64,000 nucleotides of DNA. It comes from Terrimonas ginsenosidimutans (lineage in GTDB: Bacteria; Bacteroidota; Bacteroidia; Chitinophagales; Chitinophagaceae). Every line of letters starts with the position of its first letter. Within the stretch, counting starts at the first letter, position 1. The stretch spans positions 310,001-374,000 of the forward strand of contig NZ_JAKLTR010000003.1 in NCBI RefSeq assembly GCF_022012415.1, written 5' to 3'. Positions 54,971 to 63,841 of the stretch are shown in pieces. The notes beneath the pieces are model-generated. The model saw nothing but the letters and a program-made list of their open reading frames with translations, had not been told where the DNA came from and did not search any database. Made by a program: the position numbers and the translations under genes.

Positions 54971-55255
54971 ACGCGAATGAACGCGAATGAGCACGAATTG
55001 CCGCGAATGAACACGAATTGCCGCGAATGTACACGAATGCGTCGCTCATGAAAGGCAAATAAAAAAGGAAGGGTCAAACAATGACGTTTGACCCTTCCTT
55101 TTTATATATCTTTTTGCAACCGCCGGAAGCGATTCACAAGTCTTCTAGTTCATTCGTGATTCGCGTTCATTCGTGGCAATTCGTGCTTATTCGCGTACAT
55201 TCGTGCTCATTCGCGTCAGCGTTAATTAGCAGCCATTCGTGAATCATTCGCGTAT
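54971..55255. repeat. bracketing repeat, CGCGAATGA family with 10-bp period (F4), running into the AraC gene
   Basis: Left arm: seven consecutive 10-bp words from 54971 (ACGCGAATGA, ACGCGAATGA, GCACGAATTG, CCGCGAATGA...), beginning at the glucosidase stop. Right arm: complementary 10-bp words 55151-55216. 54981-55022 pairs with 55175-55216 over 42 bases with about five mismatches. The words continue past the AraC stop to 55255 and encode that protein's last ten residues. A strong terminator sits in the loop. Confidence 0.95.
55062..55103. terminator. bidirectional terminator inside repeat F4
   Basis: AAAAAGGAAGGGTCAAAC (55062-55079) pairs perfectly over 18 bases with GTTTGACCCTTCCTTTTT (55086-55103). 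It lies between convergent genes. Confidence 0.95.
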
Positions 55256-56172
55256 AGCATTGCCTGATAGACGCCAGGGGTAATTCCTTCTGACTTTTTG
55301 AATAATCTTACAAAGTAGTTCACATCAGTAAATCCGCATTGCATGCTTACCGCGCTTACGTTGTTGCGTTTATCCGCGAGAAGTTGTTTTGCGAGTTTGA
55401 TACGCTCACGGTTGATGTAATCGAGTGGAGTAACGCCAAATTGCTCTTTGAACCATTTGAAGAACATGTTGCGGCTGAGATAAGCTTTGCGGCTTAATGC
55501 ATCAACAGCGATCTTATCAGTCAAATGTTCATGGATATAGTGCAGTACGAAATGAAGGCGGCTTTGATTGGTGTGATCGATGCTTTCGACGGCCACCTGT
55601 TGGAGGTGCTGGCTTTGAACAAGCCTGATCAGTAATTCTTTCAGATTAAGATCGGCGAAAATATTCTTGCCTTTTTCACCGCTACTGCAAACACGGATCA
55701 ATTTGTTGATCAGATCAGTAACTTCTGTGTCGTTAGCGAAATGATATTGATTGAATTGAAGGCGCCAGTCGCGTGCTTCATTCGGGTCACTATTATAGTA
55801 CGTGTTGAGGTACTGCAGGGTATTGTTGACATACGCGGCGTCAACAGCCAGGGCGATACATTGCGTTGGGTTATCCTGTTGCGCTTCAGGGAAATCGATC
55901 ACCATTGTTTCGTTCGCAGGAACGATCACCGTTTCCCCGGGCAGATACTCAAAAGAGGGCTGATCAAAAAGGTGCATCACTTTTTTCCCGCGAACCATGC
56001 TGGTGATCACAAACTCATTAAAGGTCAACGGTACGCGATATGTTTCCTGGTAGCTTTCAAAAACGTTCAGTTCGCAATTCTCAAGATTGAATACACGCCT
56101 GTTCTCCACCAAAGTTTGAAGATATTTTGGCTGTGTTAGGTCTACCGGATGGAGGTAATTTTTTGGCGGCAT
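55222..56172 (-). CDS. AraC-family regulator next to aldehyde dehydrogenase
   Basis: 316 residues. N-terminal ligand-binding domain (about 20-190) and C-terminal double HTH (VDALSRKAYLSRNMFFKWFK, GVTPLDYINRERIKLAKQLL, SAVSMQCGFTDVNYFVRLFK). It is divergent from the aldehyde dehydrogenase/DUF779 genes; the same trio occurs elsewhere, so it is probably their aldehyde- or alcohol-responsive activator. The last ten residues (YANDSRMAAN) are encoded by CGCGAAT-type repeat words. Confidence 0.9.
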   Translation of the reverse strand: MPPKNYLHPVDLTQPKYLQTLVENRRVFNLENCELNVFESYQETYRVPLTFNEFVITSMVRGKKVMHLFDQPSFEYLPGETVIVPANETMVIDFPEAQQDNPTQCIALAVDAAYVNNTLQYLNTYYNSDPNEARDWRLQFNQYHFANDTEVTDLINKLIRVCSSGEKGKNIFADLNLKELLIRLVQSQHLQQVAVESIDHTNQSRLHFVLHYIHEHLTDKIAVDALSRKAYLSRNMFFKWFKEQFGVTPLDYINRERIKLAKQLLADKRNNVSAVSMQCGFTDVNYFVRLFKKSEGITPGVYQAMLYANDSRMAAN

Positions 56173-56325
56173 AGGCGGTACGTTTAGACGCGATCAAGGT
56201 AGGGTATTTTTCCGGACTGGCTAAATTCAGAGTACGATCGTGCTAGCAAAAAGTACGAAAGTATACAGGTATTGGTTTTTAATGTAGGAAGTTACAGTAT
56301 TCTTTAACGATAAAAACGCTTGAAT

Positions 56326-57858
56326 ATGAGTACTTCTACAGCAGCTGCTCCTAAGTCCACCATTGCAGCACGTCCAAAATTCAAAGACAAGTATGATCAT
56401 TATATTGGGGGTGAATGGGTTGCTCCGTCATCGGGAGAATACTTTGATAACATATCGCCGATTGATGGAAAGGTATTTACACACGCGGCCCGGGGTAACG
56501 CAAAGGATATAGAAAAGGCTATCGATGCGGCGCACAAGGCTTTTGCCACATGGGGAAAAAGCGGAGCCGCTTATCGCAGTAATATTCTGTTGAAGATCGC
56601 CCAGGTTATAGAAGATAACCTGGAGCTTCTCGCAACAGTTGAAACTATTGACAATGGTAAGGCCATTCGTGAGTGCCGCGCGGCAGATCTGCCTTTAGTC
56701 ATTGATCACTTCCGCTATTTCGCTGGTGTGATAAGAAGCGAAGAAGGTACGCTGAGCGAGCATGATGAAACCACCGTAAGCATTAATCTGCATGAACCTA
56801 TTGGTGTTGTCGGGCAGATCATTCCCTGGAATTTTCCATTGCTGATGGCTACATGGAAGATCGCTCCCGCGCTTGCAGCAGGTTGTTGCGTGGTGGTCAA
56901 GCCTGCTGAGCAAACTCCGACAAGCATCATGGTGCTGATGGAATTAGTGGGTGATCTTTTGCCTGCAGGGGTATTGAACATTGTTACAGGGTTTGGCGTG
57001 GAAGCGGGAAAGCCGCTGGCCTCTTCTCCGAGAATCAATAAAGTTGCATTTACTGGAGAAACAACTACGGGAAGGCTCATCATGCAATACGCTTCTGAAA
57101 ATCTGATTCCTGTCACAATGGAGTTGGGTGGTAAGAGTCCGAACATCTTCTTCGAAAGTGTTGGGGATGAAGACGACGCATTCTTCGACAAAGCTGTTGA
57201 AGGTGCTGTGATGTTTGCACTGAATAACGGGGAGATCTGTACCTGCCCGAGCAGGATGCTGGTGCATGAAAAGATCTATGACAAATTTATGGAGCGCGTG
57301 ATCCAGCGTACTAAGGCGATCAAGCTTGGTAATCCGCTTGATTCAACCGTTACGATGGGAGCGCAGGCTTCAGAAGATCAGTATAAAAAGATCCTGAGCT
57401 ATCTGGATATCGGCAAACAGGAAGGTGCGCAGATATTGACGGGTGGTGAAGCTTTTCATCAGAATTCAGGATTAGAGCATGGCTACTATATTCAGCCGAC
57501 TATTTTCAAGGGTCACAATAAAATGCGCATTTTCCAGGAGGAGATATTTGGTCCGGTCGTTTCGGTTACTACGTTTAAAACAACGGAAGAAGCGATCGCC
57601 ATTGCTAATGATACCTTGTATGGTCTTGGTGCTGGTGTATGGACACGTGATGCGCATCAGCTTTACCAGGTGCCGCGTGCGATCGAGGCGGGCCGTGTTT
57701 GGGTGAACAACTATCATGCGTACCCTGCTCATGCTCCTTTCGGCGGCTATAAAAAATCGGGCTTTGGCCGCGAAACACATAAGATGATGTTGAATCATTA
57801 TCGTCAGACGAAGAATATGCTGATCTCTTACAGCAAAGAAAAGCTTGGATTTTTCTAA
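56326..57858 (+). CDS. NAD-dependent aldehyde dehydrogenase (AldB/ExaC-like)
   Basis: 510 residues from the ATG at 56326 (the frame extends two codons to a TTG). [34 protein letters not shown] (general base Glu) and [12 protein letters not shown] (catalytic Cys) are intact; the C-terminal [17 protein letters not shown] is typical. The [20 protein letters not shown] start and pairing with DUF779 and AraC point to the acetaldehyde dehydrogenase branch of alcohol/2,3-butanediol metabolism. Confidence 0.93.
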
Positions 57859-57863
57859 GCGCA

Positions 57864-57995
57864 ATGCAGATGCTGCTGATCATTGTTATGCATCGGCTGA
57901 GGGAGATGAGCCCGCCGTTGCGATTGGTTTTCGGTATTGGCGAAAGTGCATTGGTTAAATATCGGATCAAACGATTTTCTAGTTTGGCAAGTTAG
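57864..57995 (+). CDS. possible 43-residue ORF (uncertain)
   Basis: Starts with ATG six bases after the aldehyde dehydrogenase stop: MQMLLIIVMHRLREMSPPLR and a basic second half ending RFSSLAS. The first ten residues are hydrophobic. The opposite strand is also open and there is no clear ribosome-binding site, so this may be chance. Confidence 0.25.
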   Translation: MQMLLIIVMHRLREMSPPLRLVFGIGESALVKYRIKRFSSLAS

Positions 57996-58001
57996 GAATA
58001 A

Positions 58002-58030
58002 CGGTGGCGCAAGCCACTGTTTTCCATTTT
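58002..58030 (+). terminator. weak terminator-like hairpin
   Basis: GTGGC, loop GCAA, GCCAC, then TGTTTTCCATTTTT. It lies between the aldehyde dehydrogenase and DUF779 genes and may attenuate readthrough. Confidence 0.5.
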
Positions 58031-58062
58031 TGCTAATCTGTGAACAGTAAAAGTTTTCTTGT

Positions 58063-58440
58063 ATGATCAAACGTGTTTTAGCGACGGACAAGGCGCTTCA
58101 GCTTATCGACAGGTTGAAAGAAATGCATGGTAACCTGATGTTTCATCAAAGCGGCGGTTGTTGTGACGGTAGCCAGCCGATGTGTTTTGCGGAAGGAGAG
58201 TTCCGGATTGGCGGCAGCGATGTGTGTTTAGGTGAAATTGCAGGATGTAAATTTTACATGAATGCGGATCAGTTTGAATACTGGAAACATACACAACTAA
58301 CGTTGGATGTTACGCCGGGACGTGGAAGCAGCTTTTCGCTGGAGATCCCGCTTGGTGTAAGATTCTATATTCTGTCGAAGATCTTCACTGATGATGAACT
58401 TACTCAACTTGAACCGTTATTGAAGACAGCAGAAGTTTAA
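58063..58440 (+). CDS. DUF779 family protein
   Basis: 125 residues. The family hallmark HQSGGCCDGSQPMCF is near residues 28-42, with further IAGCKFYMNADQFEYW. DUF779 genes regularly follow acetaldehyde dehydrogenase genes, as here. The cysteine cluster suggests metal binding, but the biochemical role is not established. Confidence 0.92.
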   Translation: MIKRVLATDKALQLIDRLKEMHGNLMFHQSGGCCDGSQPMCFAEGEFRIGGSDVCLGEIAGCKFYMNADQFEYWKHTQLTLDVTPGRGSSFSLEIPLGVRFYILSKIFTDDELTQLEPLLKTAEV

Positions 58441-61327: not shown

Positions 61328-62605
61328 CTATTTCACTTCGAAAAGTTCATTCCACCGCGTCGTATATCTTCCACTTCGTAGTTCCTGCCGCATCTTCCAG
61401 TCTCTGGTAGTTCCGGACGAGGCAAATTTTAGAATATCATCTCGTTGGCTGAAATTGATATTATCCATCATACTCATCAATTGCCTTTGCGTATTTCTGT
61501 CGGTTGTGTCAAAAAGATTACCCTGCACGGAGTCATCAGGAACAAGCCCACTTAACATTACGCCTGCTTTTTTATAAATATTCCCCGGTTGGTAAAGATG
61601 TTCGACCAATTCGAGCGCCGGCTTGATCAATTCCTGGGTAATCGATGTCGCTACAGGAAGTGTAGCATGATCGCTTATGCTATCTTCCCGCCAGTCCAGC
61701 AGATGGTCCTGTCCTTTGCCCACAATAAACACACTTACCACTTTTGCAGCACTGTATTGCCGACGTAGTTTCTCTGCTGCGCGGGAAGTGTAAGTTGCAA
61801 CTGCTTCTTTTATGTCCTCAATATTATTCACTGGACTGCCGAACATTCGCGTGGTAGCGATCATTCTTTTTTCCACCAGTTCCTTTTTTGTATCCACGGC
61901 CAACTCCCCTCTCAATTCTTTTATAAGGCGTACGCCCACTACGCCGCCAAGATTTGCGTGCGCCCATTCTTCACGCATGGTTGCCAGTTCCCAGCCACTG
62001 GTAATGCCCATATTGAATAATTTAGCTGCATTAGCGCGACCAATTCCCCAGATATTATTTAACCGGGTATGTTGTAAGGCTTCGCGTTGTTGATGCTGAG
62101 TTGCAAGAATGGAGATGCAGCCAGTTATATTTTTGTTTTTTTTGGCGATGTGATTGGCCAGTTTAGCCAGCGTCTTCGTTGGCGCTACACCGATAGATAC
62201 AGAAATGCCGGTCCATTGTTCAACGATTTCTTTCATTTCCCGTGCTGCTTGCTCCAATTGATCAAACGGCATTTCGGGCAGATCTACAAATGCCTCATCA
62301 ACAGAATATACTTCCACCTTATCCGTTCCTGCGATAGCGCGTAATGTGTCCATCACCCGCATGCTCAGATCGCCGTATAGATTATAATTCGAAGAGAATA
62401 CAGCTACATCATGTTTTTCGATCAAATGTCTCGCCTGAAAATAAGGCCCTGCCATTTCTACTCCAACTGCTTTAGCCTCATCGCTTCTGGATACAATACA
62501 TCCATCGTTGTTGCTGAGTACAACAACGGGCCGTTTTTCCAGCTTTGGTTTGAACAGCCGCTCACAGGAGCAATAAAAACTATTGCAATCAACGATGGCT
62601 TTCAT
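61328..62605 (-). CDS. umuC: Y-family DNA polymerase, UmuC type
   Basis: 425 residues, UmuC length. Translesion polymerase. Catalytic carboxylates Asp6 (VDCNSFYCSCE) and Asp103/Glu104 (VYSVDEAF) are present, with PVVVLSNNDGCIVSRSDEAK, GVAPTKTLAKLAN and WGIGRANAAKL (HhH). A clamp-binding motif QGNLF is at 361-365. The start lies one base after the stop of the UmuD-like gene (TAG-T-ATG), so the two are translationally coupled. Confidence 0.95.
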   Translation of the reverse strand: MKAIVDCNSFYCSCERLFKPKLEKRPVVVLSNNDGCIVSRSDEAKAVGVEMAGPYFQARHLIEKHDVAVFSSNYNLYGDLSMRVMDTLRAIAGTDKVEVYSVDEAFVDLPEMPFDQLEQAAREMKEIVEQWTGISVSIGVAPTKTLAKLANHIAKKNKNITGCISILATQHQQREALQHTRLNNIWGIGRANAAKLFNMGITSGWELATMREEWAHANLGGVVGVRLIKELRGELAVDTKKELVEKRMIATTRMFGSPVNNIEDIKEAVATYTSRAAEKLRRQYSAAKVVSVFIVGKGQDHLLDWREDSISDHATLPVATSITQELIKPALELVEHLYQPGNIYKKAGVMLSGLVPDDSVQGNLFDTTDRNTQRQLMSMMDNINFSQRDDILKFASSGTTRDWKMRQELRSGRYTTRWNELFEVK

Positions 62606-62606
62606 A

Positions 62607-63095
62607 CTACCAGTTTGATGATTTGTTATCCTTTTTTCTATTATGCAAATGAAGTTGTAACGTGGAGTCTACCGGATGAATCACGCAGGTTACAACTCCC
62701 CATGCCGAATAGGTATTGTATTCTCCTATTTCAATAGGTTTATATTTTTTATTTTCAGGGGAAAGGGTCACGCGATTGAAAGTTTGCTGAAATCGTCTGA
62801 CAACTAACTCGCCATCCAAGGCCGCTACAATGATCTTGCCGTTAGTTGGCTTTATGCTGCGGTCGATGATAAGCACATCATCATCATTCAAACCTGCATC
62901 CGCCATGGCATCTCCCCGCATGCGGAAAAAAAATGTCGCAGGCTTATTCATGATCAGTTGCTCATTCAGATCGATCCCTCTTTCCATATAATCATCAGCG
63001 GCCGCACCGAATCCAGTCGCATTTGCCGTTCTTATTTGCTGCTGAGAAAATTGCTTCGAACCTTTGTACGCCGCTCCATAAAATTCTTCTTCCAT
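62607..63095 (-). CDS. UmuD-like protein lacking the Ser/Lys protease dyad
   Basis: 162 residues from the ATG at 63095 (a TTG start seven codons earlier is possible). It aligns with E. coli UmuD along its length (GFGAAADDYMERGIDLNEQL; TFFFRMRGDAMADAGLNDDD; VLIIDRSIKPTNGKIIVAAL; DGELVVRRFQ). The catalytic Ser60 of UmuD (GDSM) is Ala63 (GDAM), and Lys97 is Arg100 (VVRRF); both codons (GCC, AGA) are clear in the DNA. The Cys-Gly cleavage site is Thr27-Gly28. It therefore should not self-cleave. Operon with umuC; divergent from 2H-phosphoesterase genes. Confidence 0.9.
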   Translation of the reverse strand: MEEEFYGAAYKGSKQFSQQQIRTANATGFGAAADDYMERGIDLNEQLIMNKPATFFFRMRGDAMADAGLNDDDVLIIDRSIKPTNGKIIVAALDGELVVRRFQQTFNRVTLSPENKKYKPIEIGEYNTYSAWGVVTCVIHPVDSTLQLHLHNRKKDNKSSNW

Positions 63096-63163
63096 ACTCA
63101 AACGTTTAATAAACAAGATGATTCAAAACCCGAAAAATAAAGTTAGTAAAAATAAAATTAAAA

Positions 63164-63178
63164 ACTAAATAATTTAGT
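63164..63178. promoter_or_regulatory. palindrome in the umuD/2H divergent promoter region (candidate operator)
   Basis: ACTAAATAATTTAGT is a perfect 7-bp-arm palindrome. TTAGTAA occurs both in it (63174-63180) and 31 bp to the left (63143-63149). It sits midway between the two divergent starts, where a shared repressor could bind. No LexA gene is in the window and the site is not a known SOS box. Confidence 0.45.
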
Positions 63179-63214: not shown

Positions 63215-63841
63215 ATGTTACAAGCGACAATTCAACAGAGGAGGCCGGGAGTAGCCTGGAAGGACTGGACAGACGTTTATAATACTGCGCCAGTCAGACA
63301 AGATGAGTTTGAATACCTGCTTGTTATACATCCGGATATGGATGTATACAGTAAGGTGCTGGCGGAAAGGCAATACTTTAATCAGCGCTATCCGGATAAA
63401 GAGAGTGTACGCTCAAAACCTCATATCGCTGTAGCTGGTTTTGTGGCCAGGGATTCGATGGAAGAAACATTGATCCGTTGGATTCAACGCGTTTGCAGCA
63501 CACATAAAAGCTTTGACGTAACGCTTAACAATTACAGCGGTATCCCGCCACATACTGTCTATCTGAGGGTTCAGGATCATTTGCCGTTCGATCTGCTTAC
63601 GCAAAAGCTGAATGTTATTGGTGAATATATTCAGTCTAATGGCTGCCCTCCGGTCAAATGGACTGCCCGGCCTCATCTTAGTTTCGCCGGTCAACTGGCT
63701 GAAGATGTCTATGAACGAGCTATGAGGGATTATTCTCAGCGATTTTTTTTTGAAACATTTACCGCATCTGAACTTGTATTGTTGAAGAAAATTCCGGGCG
63801 AAGCCTGCAAGATCATTAATATTTTCAGATTGATGCCTTAA
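63215..63841 (+). CDS. 2H phosphoesterase / 2'-5' RNA ligase-like protein (first of tandem pair)
   Basis: 208 residues. Two repeated beta-alpha lobes with 2H motifs: KPHIAVAGF (His70) and RPHLSFAG (His154). The first motif reads H-x-A rather than H-x-T/S, the second is normal. The start of the fold is EYLLVIHPDMDVYSKV. Substrates may be RNA 2',3'-cyclic phosphates, 2'-5' linkages or nucleotide derivatives. It is divergent from the UmuD/UmuC operon and followed 28 bp later by a paralogue. Confidence 0.82.
   Translation: MLQATIQQRRPGVAWKDWTDVYNTAPVRQDEFEYLLVIHPDMDVYSKVLAERQYFNQRYPDKESVRSKPHIAVAGFVARDSMEETLIRWIQRVCSTHKSFDVTLNNYSGIPPHTVYLRVQDHLPFDLLTQKLNVIGEYIQSNGCPPVKWTARPHLSFAGQLAEDVYERAMRDYSQRFFFETFTASELVLLKKIPGEACKIINIFRLMP

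Follow-up and report, generated by a model that had tools for sequence, protein, structure and literature searches.

Self-cleavage of UmuD is the textbook post-translational switch of the error-prone DNA polymerase V (Pol V). A stretch of 64,000 nucleotides from Terrimonas ginsenosidimutans (contig NZ_JAKLTR010000003.1, positions 310,001 to 374,000; hereafter the window) carries a umuD homologue, followed by umuC, whose product has neither of the two catalytic residues of Escherichia coli UmuD, and the locus therefore raises the question of how a Pol V might be controlled when its UmuD does not cut itself. The answer favoured here, and considered reasonably probable, is a Pol V specific to the Chitinophagaceae in which UmuD is a pseudoprotease that keeps its N-terminal arm as a lasting component of the polymerase, with SOS transcription as the main control.

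The assignment of the protein to UmuD is supported by Pfam, in which only S24 was found (Peptidase_S24, 2.7e-23, residues 26–135), by sequence matches with E. coli UmuD' (1umu; 5.6e-24) and with UmuD in 8gmt (1.1e-23), by superposition of its AlphaFold2 core on UmuD' (1ay9; template-modelling score TMt 0.90) and by a score of 136.3 bits against the NCBIfam model of E. coli UmuD (NF007621; cut-off 110). Of the traits of a Pol V UmuD, the S24/LexA-like core fold and sequence are thus present, an SOS-controlled promoter is present by motif only, and the Ser-Lys catalytic dyad and the Cys-Gly or Ala-Gly scissile bond are absent. The first-pass annotation had described these replacements, namely Ala63 (GDAM) for E. 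coli Ser60, Arg100 (VVRRF) for Lys97 and Thr27-Gly28 for the Cys-Gly cleavage site, and alignment to E. coli UmuD bears out all three, together with its statements that a segment resembling AADYxExRIDLN is well kept (AADDYMERGIDLN) and that umuD is coupled to an intact umuC, which begins after a gap of one base behind the umuD stop codon and encodes a protein with IMS, IMS_C and DUF4113 domains. The NCBIfam name 'autoproteolytic subunit' is contradicted by the sequence of the window protein.

Relatives of the window protein were assembled into a clade of 112 distinct sequences, comprising loci of the family with near-duplicates merged, named contigs and three genomes from the order search. Membership required a phmmer score of >150 against the window protein, and rows alike over their C-terminal 100 residues were collapsed into one; L134 and L193, which carry runs of N, are counted as partly read, and two loci below the cut-off are not among the 112 (L133, score 118.8, with a scrambled arm and an A/R dyad, and L199, at a contig end, with R at the Lys site). 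All 112 sequences have Arg where E. coli UmuD has Lys97, and none has Lys; at the Ser site, 104 have Ala, 6 Ser and 2 Thr; and the residue preceding the former bond (P1) is Thr in 98, Asn in 10 and Ser in 4, never Ala or Cys. The suspicion that Ala and Arg might be unique to this genome is thereby dismissed, and the alternative raised with it, a conserved subfamily, is what the aligned relatives form: one clade, seen only in the family of the window among the genomes searched. Judged from these alignments, the loss of both catalytic positions is neither chance nor local decay, and members of the clade are best read as UmuD proteins without self-cleavage. The arm is 26 or 27 residues long in 109/112 sequences, so that the ATG at 63095, which aligns with the starts of the clade, is favoured over a start further upstream (TTG at 63116).

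By hand count of the search, this uncleavable type occurs in 94 of 195 genomes of the window's family, taken to be Chitinophagaceae from sequences identical to named records (for instance G003 and Terrimonas ferruginea), being full-length in 91, scrambled in its arm in G108, interrupted by unread bases in G131 and cut by the contig end in G112. It was not seen outside the family among 198 genomes of the order and 395 of the phylum (overlapping sets) or among the contigs of named genomes. All listed matches with E <1e-40 in the order and phylum searches belong to the family of the window; another family yields two matches of 51–52% identity at E values near 1e-33, of which the one that was read (L115) is of the Ser/Lys type. 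Named relatives are mostly Chitinophagaceae (Terrimonas, Hydrotalea and Ferruginibacter), with others labelled just Bacteroidetes/Bacteroidota, Chitinophagales or, once, Flavobacterium; the scan of named contigs recovers close relatives only, and the wider distribution rests on the order and phylum genomes. No match of at least 60% identity was found among the best 5000 PLSDB plasmid records or 71 INPHARED phage records, so there is no sign of the type on plasmids or phages in these collections. Searches of the PMC literature gave no description of the type; the supplements of PMC8565304 may hold some of the sequences.

When the arm is left out and the two dyad positions are masked, the resulting tree sets the type apart on one side of a branch with a Shimodaira–Hasegawa-like approximate likelihood-ratio (SH-aLRT) support of 100 and the clade needs a single change; for this count L133 was relabelled by its tree position and L084–L088, L134, L199, L205 and L206 were dropped. 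The tree is otherwise poorly resolved (84/185 inner branches <80). A first tree needed two changes, with the diverged L133 assigned by score to the other group and the long-branch L150 falling inside the clade. Recent decay of the window gene is ruled out by the conservation across the clade, the selection tests and the tree.

Column-by-column comparison of the clade with 69 relatives of the Ser/Lys type indicates where constraint lies. Residues 27–45, which span the former cut site and the tip, have an entropy of 0.23 bits in the clade versus 1.27 bits in the relatives, residues 10–26 have 1.21 versus 2.70 bits, and the clade core (residues 46–140) has 1.29 bits, making residues 27–45 the most constrained of the blocks compared. 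The arm shows recurrent residues (Y10 in 106/111, G12 in 110/111, K14 in 106/111, Q18 in 109/112 and A26 in 112/112), Gly28 and Phe29 are invariant, and the L-P-[LFY] arm element that is common in the Ser/Lys relatives is absent from the clade. P1, which is Ala in 68/69 relatives, is Thr, Asn or Ser in 112/112 clade sequences; P3 changes from Val or Ile (65/69) to Asn or Asp (111/112), and the tip from GFPSPA in most Ser/Lys relatives to GFGAAA, such that GFGAAADDY replaces GFPSPAADY. From these columns, the catalytic base, P1 and P3 are lost throughout or nearly so and the nucleophile in 106/112, and the stretch in which the cut would lie is the most constrained of the blocks. The ratio of nonsynonymous to synonymous substitution rates (dN/dS) is 0.02–0.06 for the ten closest of the 26 pairs compared; some distant pairs, with dS >1, have values of up to about 0.3. 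By sequence, the uncut arm and its joint with the core are under purifying selection.

The partner protein has changed in parallel. UmuC proteins adjoining uncleavable UmuD form one clade (support 98, starred; 78 proteins long enough for comparison), with an additional Gly at 220–221 in 78/78 and Met254 in 77/78, position 254 being Ser, Gly or Thr in 43 other UmuC proteins. Residues corresponding to the catalytic carboxylates of E. coli UmuC (D6, D101 and E102) are retained in 77, 78 and 78 of these 78 proteins, the one shortfall at D6 being a gap, and the C-terminal tail of the window UmuC resembles that of E. coli. Clade-wide, umuC is adjacent and on the same strand in 85/112 loci; in a subset of 88 loci it is non-adjacent in 21, lying farther on, on the other strand or not being found in the flank read. 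By eye, a transposase-like open reading frame (ORF) lies between umuD and umuC in L010, L018, L098 and L160, and radical S-adenosylmethionine (SplB-like) genes lie behind umuD in some relatives.

Among 27 genomes with the uncleavable UmuD that were checked for UmuC (19 taken from one set of 20 and 8 from another set of 10), 26 have the matching UmuC. In the remaining genome, G108, the only UmuC is of the other type, as assigned by the tree and by both signatures, and the 3 kb that follow umuD hold no trace of UmuC. The arm and tip of its UmuD (L133) are scrambled, with 20/45 residues identical to its sister L169, compared with 28/45 between L169 and the sister L108, and its core is ordinary (76/99 identical to L169; 75/99 between L169 and L108). 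This single case, in which the matching UmuC is missing and the arm rather than the core is scrambled, ties the arm to the clade UmuC. In a published Pol V model (PMC11791011), UmuD' has its N-terminal end close to the active site of UmuC, in contact with the palm and little finger, and a RecA-binding motif of UmuC is treated in PMC6511836.

Evidence for transcriptional control comes from the promoter regions. Sanchez-Osuna et al. (2021; PMC8565304) showed that Bacteroidetes possess non-canonical LexA proteins, one group of which is linked to CTAA-N5-TTAG. The box in the window lies 69 bases before the umuD start and on its own is at chance level (64 kb would hold about 0.65 such sites by chance). 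Across the clade, a perfect box is found within 250 bp upstream in 104/111 loci (one row had no usable upstream stretch), against a mean of 0.8 and a maximum of 5 in 200 runs of a Markov control, and in 72 of these 104 it lies 16–22 bp before the ATG; other UmuD loci have it in 22/81. The sole other S24-family match in the genome is a lexA-like protein that by eye retains Ala-Gly, GDSM and VYKR, with a CTAA-N5-TTAG box starting 7 bp upstream of its gene, and recA has such a site 51–63 bp upstream of the listed ORF start. With boxes at the clade loci, the lexA-like gene and recA, the transcriptional tier of SOS control looks intact and the UmuD-cleavage tier does not.

A further group of UmuD proteins in the same family bears on the loss of cleavage. 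Nine other copies start with Met at P1, that is, directly as UmuD' in the manner of HumD of phage P1 (L207 is a possible further case, and the membership of L206 is weak). They have Arg at the Lys97 site in 9/9, with Ala in four, Ser in four and Asn in one at the Ser site. The masked tree needs seven changes for Lys/Arg (four in the first tree) and four for the short form, its well supported branches forcing just one change for the latter. It seems that Arg takes the place of Lys once cleavage has become dispensable. A second UmuD accompanies the uncleavable type in 10 of the 94 genomes (G045, G058, G063, G068, G071, G087, G108, G135, G141 and G150), a hand count that excludes three 29–32% matches of longer ORFs. 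Of the second copies read in eight genomes, six are of the short type without a dyad and two (G087 and G108) keep Ser-Lys; with so few second copies, most of them lacking the dyad, an active UmuD that could cut in trans is not generally available.

The features are collected in Table 1. The 2H-phosphoesterase-like gene transcribed divergently from umuD recurs in 86/112 clade loci versus 1/84 other UmuD loci (two clade loci and eight others had too little flank to tell), and it may represent a further, unrecognized SOS gene family. In the source genome it is followed, by eye, by a second 2H-phosphoesterase-like gene in tandem and an SplB-like gene.

Table 1. Positions of the features discussed (window numbering unless a locus is named).
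Feature	Position	Strand	Basis or remark
UmuD homologue, pseudoprotease by sequence	62607..63095	-	162 aa; Pfam, structure-sequence, fold and clade evidence
N-terminal arm retained, residues 1-26	63018..63095	-	Clade motif Y-x-G-[ST]-K-x-[FY]-x-Q-x-x-[VI]-x-T-A-N-A
Former cleavage bond Thr27-Gly28 (E. coli Cys24-Gly25)	63012..63017	-	Alignment; clade P1 counts
Remodelled tip, residues 27-45 (TGFGAAADDYMERGIDLNE)	62961..63017	-	Column entropy, clade versus Ser/Lys relatives
Ala63 codon at E. coli Ser60 position (GDAM)	62907..62909	-	Alignment to E. coli UmuD
Arg100 codon at E. coli Lys97 position (VVRRF)	62796..62798	-	Alignment; Arg in all clade members
umuC, matching clade (type I)	61328..62605	-	425 aa; IMS, IMS_C and DUF4113 domains
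SOS box CTAAATAATTTAG between umuD and divergent gene	63165..63177	.	Only exact CTAA-N5-TTAG in the window
Divergent 2H-phosphoesterase-like gene (Pfam 2_5_RNA_ligase2)	63215..63841	+	SOS box in shared intergenic region
2H-phosphoesterase-like gene	L220 871-1479	+	
AraC-type regulator, aldehyde dehydrogenase and DUF779 genes, adjoining	55222-58440		
Likely non-canonical LexA, HTH_3 + S24	L090 1369-2118	-	Own CTAA-N5-TTAG box at 2125-2137
UmuD'-like copies	L137, L143, L145, L150, L151, L152, L200, L204, L206		Met at cleavage position

The error-prone polymerase of this clade is probably controlled by something other than UmuD cleavage. In the mechanism proposed here, DNA damage would lead to RecA filaments, these would induce self-cleavage of the non-canonical LexA, whose S24 domain has its dyad intact, and umuD and umuC would then be transcribed. 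The uncut UmuD dimer would assemble directly with UmuC into the working polymerase, the arm no longer being an inhibitor that needs removal. The arm probably docks on UmuC, and together with the remodelled tip it could do so close to the active site, at the place that models give to the freed end of E. coli UmuD'; the clade arm would extend that end. RecA would probably still take part through the C-terminal RecA-binding motif of UmuC. The first-pass annotation named two options, a different mode of control and a structural partner that is never cleaved; both agree with this reading, which lends them support. Also in its favour, a noncleavable E. coli UmuD with looser arms (UmuD 18) still supports mutagenesis at a low level (PMC5342242). 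In a stronger version, which is put forward tentatively as slightly less likely than not, the arm is an essential as well as permanent contact with UmuC (and perhaps with DNA or RecA) near the active site, Pol V is born active under the control of transcription and RecA alone, and directly encoded UmuD' is a second cleavage-free route in the family.

Several observations weigh against this explanation. Arm residues 1–9 are loose (1.99 bits in the clade) and the pooled ratio of nonsynonymous to synonymous polymorphism (pN/pS) is higher in the arm (0.302) than in the core (0.205), both of which argue against the whole arm being equally important. AlphaFold2 monomers were modelled for the window protein and for one Ser/Lys control, and the arms are of low confidence in both (predicted local distance difference test, pLDDT, <50 for window residues 1–31); since such monomers give no arm structure, we infer docking on UmuC rather than read it from a model. 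The nucleophile Ser is kept, with Arg at the Lys site, in six clade members, and about half of the family genomes (101/195, by hand count) do not have the type. The tie between arm and UmuC drawn from G108 concerns one genome, and in the third pairing there, L108 with L133, the core (66/99) is less alike as well as the arm (14/45). Finally, UV mutagenesis is greatly reduced with the noncleavable S60A form of E. coli UmuD (PMC5342242), so that the clade would have to have compensated for such a loss.

The same E. coli result is part of the case for the main rival, which we regard as unlikely: the uncut dimer would act as a permanent brake, holding UmuC in a checkpoint or accurate-bypass state like that of UmuD2C, so that Pol V would never become the mutagenic UmuD'2C. 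It is consistent with the roles given in PMC4045847 for the E. coli complexes, UmuD2C in the checkpoint and UmuD'2C in bypass, and with the finding that 84 of the 94 genomes show no other UmuD at E 1e-5 (hand count), so that UmuD' from another source is not at hand there. However, the GFPSPA tip and the L-P-[LFY] arm element have both been replaced and UmuC has diverged alongside them, which suggests an altered assembly and not a frozen E. coli UmuD2C. Removal of the arm in trans, by another S24 protein or an unrelated protease, is improbable. An active partner subunit can cut E. coli UmuD S60A in trans, as stated in PMC5342242, and Gly28 and Phe29 are still invariant; nevertheless, the lexA-like repressor is the one other S24-family match of the genome, second copies of UmuD are as scarce and as generally devoid of the dyad as described above, P1 and P3 no longer resemble those of an S24 substrate, and there is no need for the most constrained of the blocks compared to be the one that attaches an arm destined to be discarded.

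Two further possibilities can be given very little weight. Self-cleavage by another chemistry at Thr/Ser/Asn27-Gly28 might be suggested by the restriction of P1 to residues whose side chains occur in some self-processing proteins, but side chains that are small and polar could equally serve structurally, and Thr and Asn are not known to share a single self-cleavage chemistry. Neutral decay of a disused protease, the least credible of all, would account for the Ser and Thr members at the nucleophile site, where the masked tree needs six changes; against it stand Arg without exception at the Lys site, low dN/dS, the stronger conservation of the former cut site and the retained promoter box.

A bacterial group that apparently dispenses with UmuD cleavage by design yet keeps an SOS box would make the purpose of cleavage directly testable, with natural kinds of Pol V that need cleavage, encode UmuD' or keep the arm available for comparison; the database name quoted above is unfit for the uncleavable clade.

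Compared with known systems, the clade shares with E. coli UmuD of Pol V the S24 core fold, the operon with umuC, the SOS box and a full-length N-terminal arm, and differs in having neither the Ser-Lys dyad nor a Cys/Ala-Gly bond and in its new arm motif and GFGAAA tip. HumD of phage P1 and other directly encoded UmuD' proteins likewise serve a Pol V without self-cleavage, but HumD starts at M-GFPSPAADY without an arm, whereas the clade arm is kept and conserved; the window protein has 26 residues before Thr27, so it does not start at the cleavage position, and it scores 64 against the HumD family cut-off of 120. UmuDAb of Acinetobacter is also a UmuD with a new role, in contrast to which the clade protein has a 26-residue arm and no dyad; an N-terminal DNA-binding domain of the UmuDAb/LexA kind was not found in the window protein by Pfam, and the lexA model gives 69.2 against a cut-off of 110.95. 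The non-canonical LexA of Bacteroidetes, as portrayed in PMC8565304, has an S24 domain and a motif that precedes the window umuD, but it is a distinct protein and the presumed regulator of this gene, and its likely copy in this genome retains, by eye, the cleavage residues. The E. coli S60A and K97A laboratory mutants are likewise full-length with a dead dyad; the S60A form loses most mutagenesis, as cited above, whereas the dead form of the clade is natural, conserved and accompanied by a matching UmuC clade.
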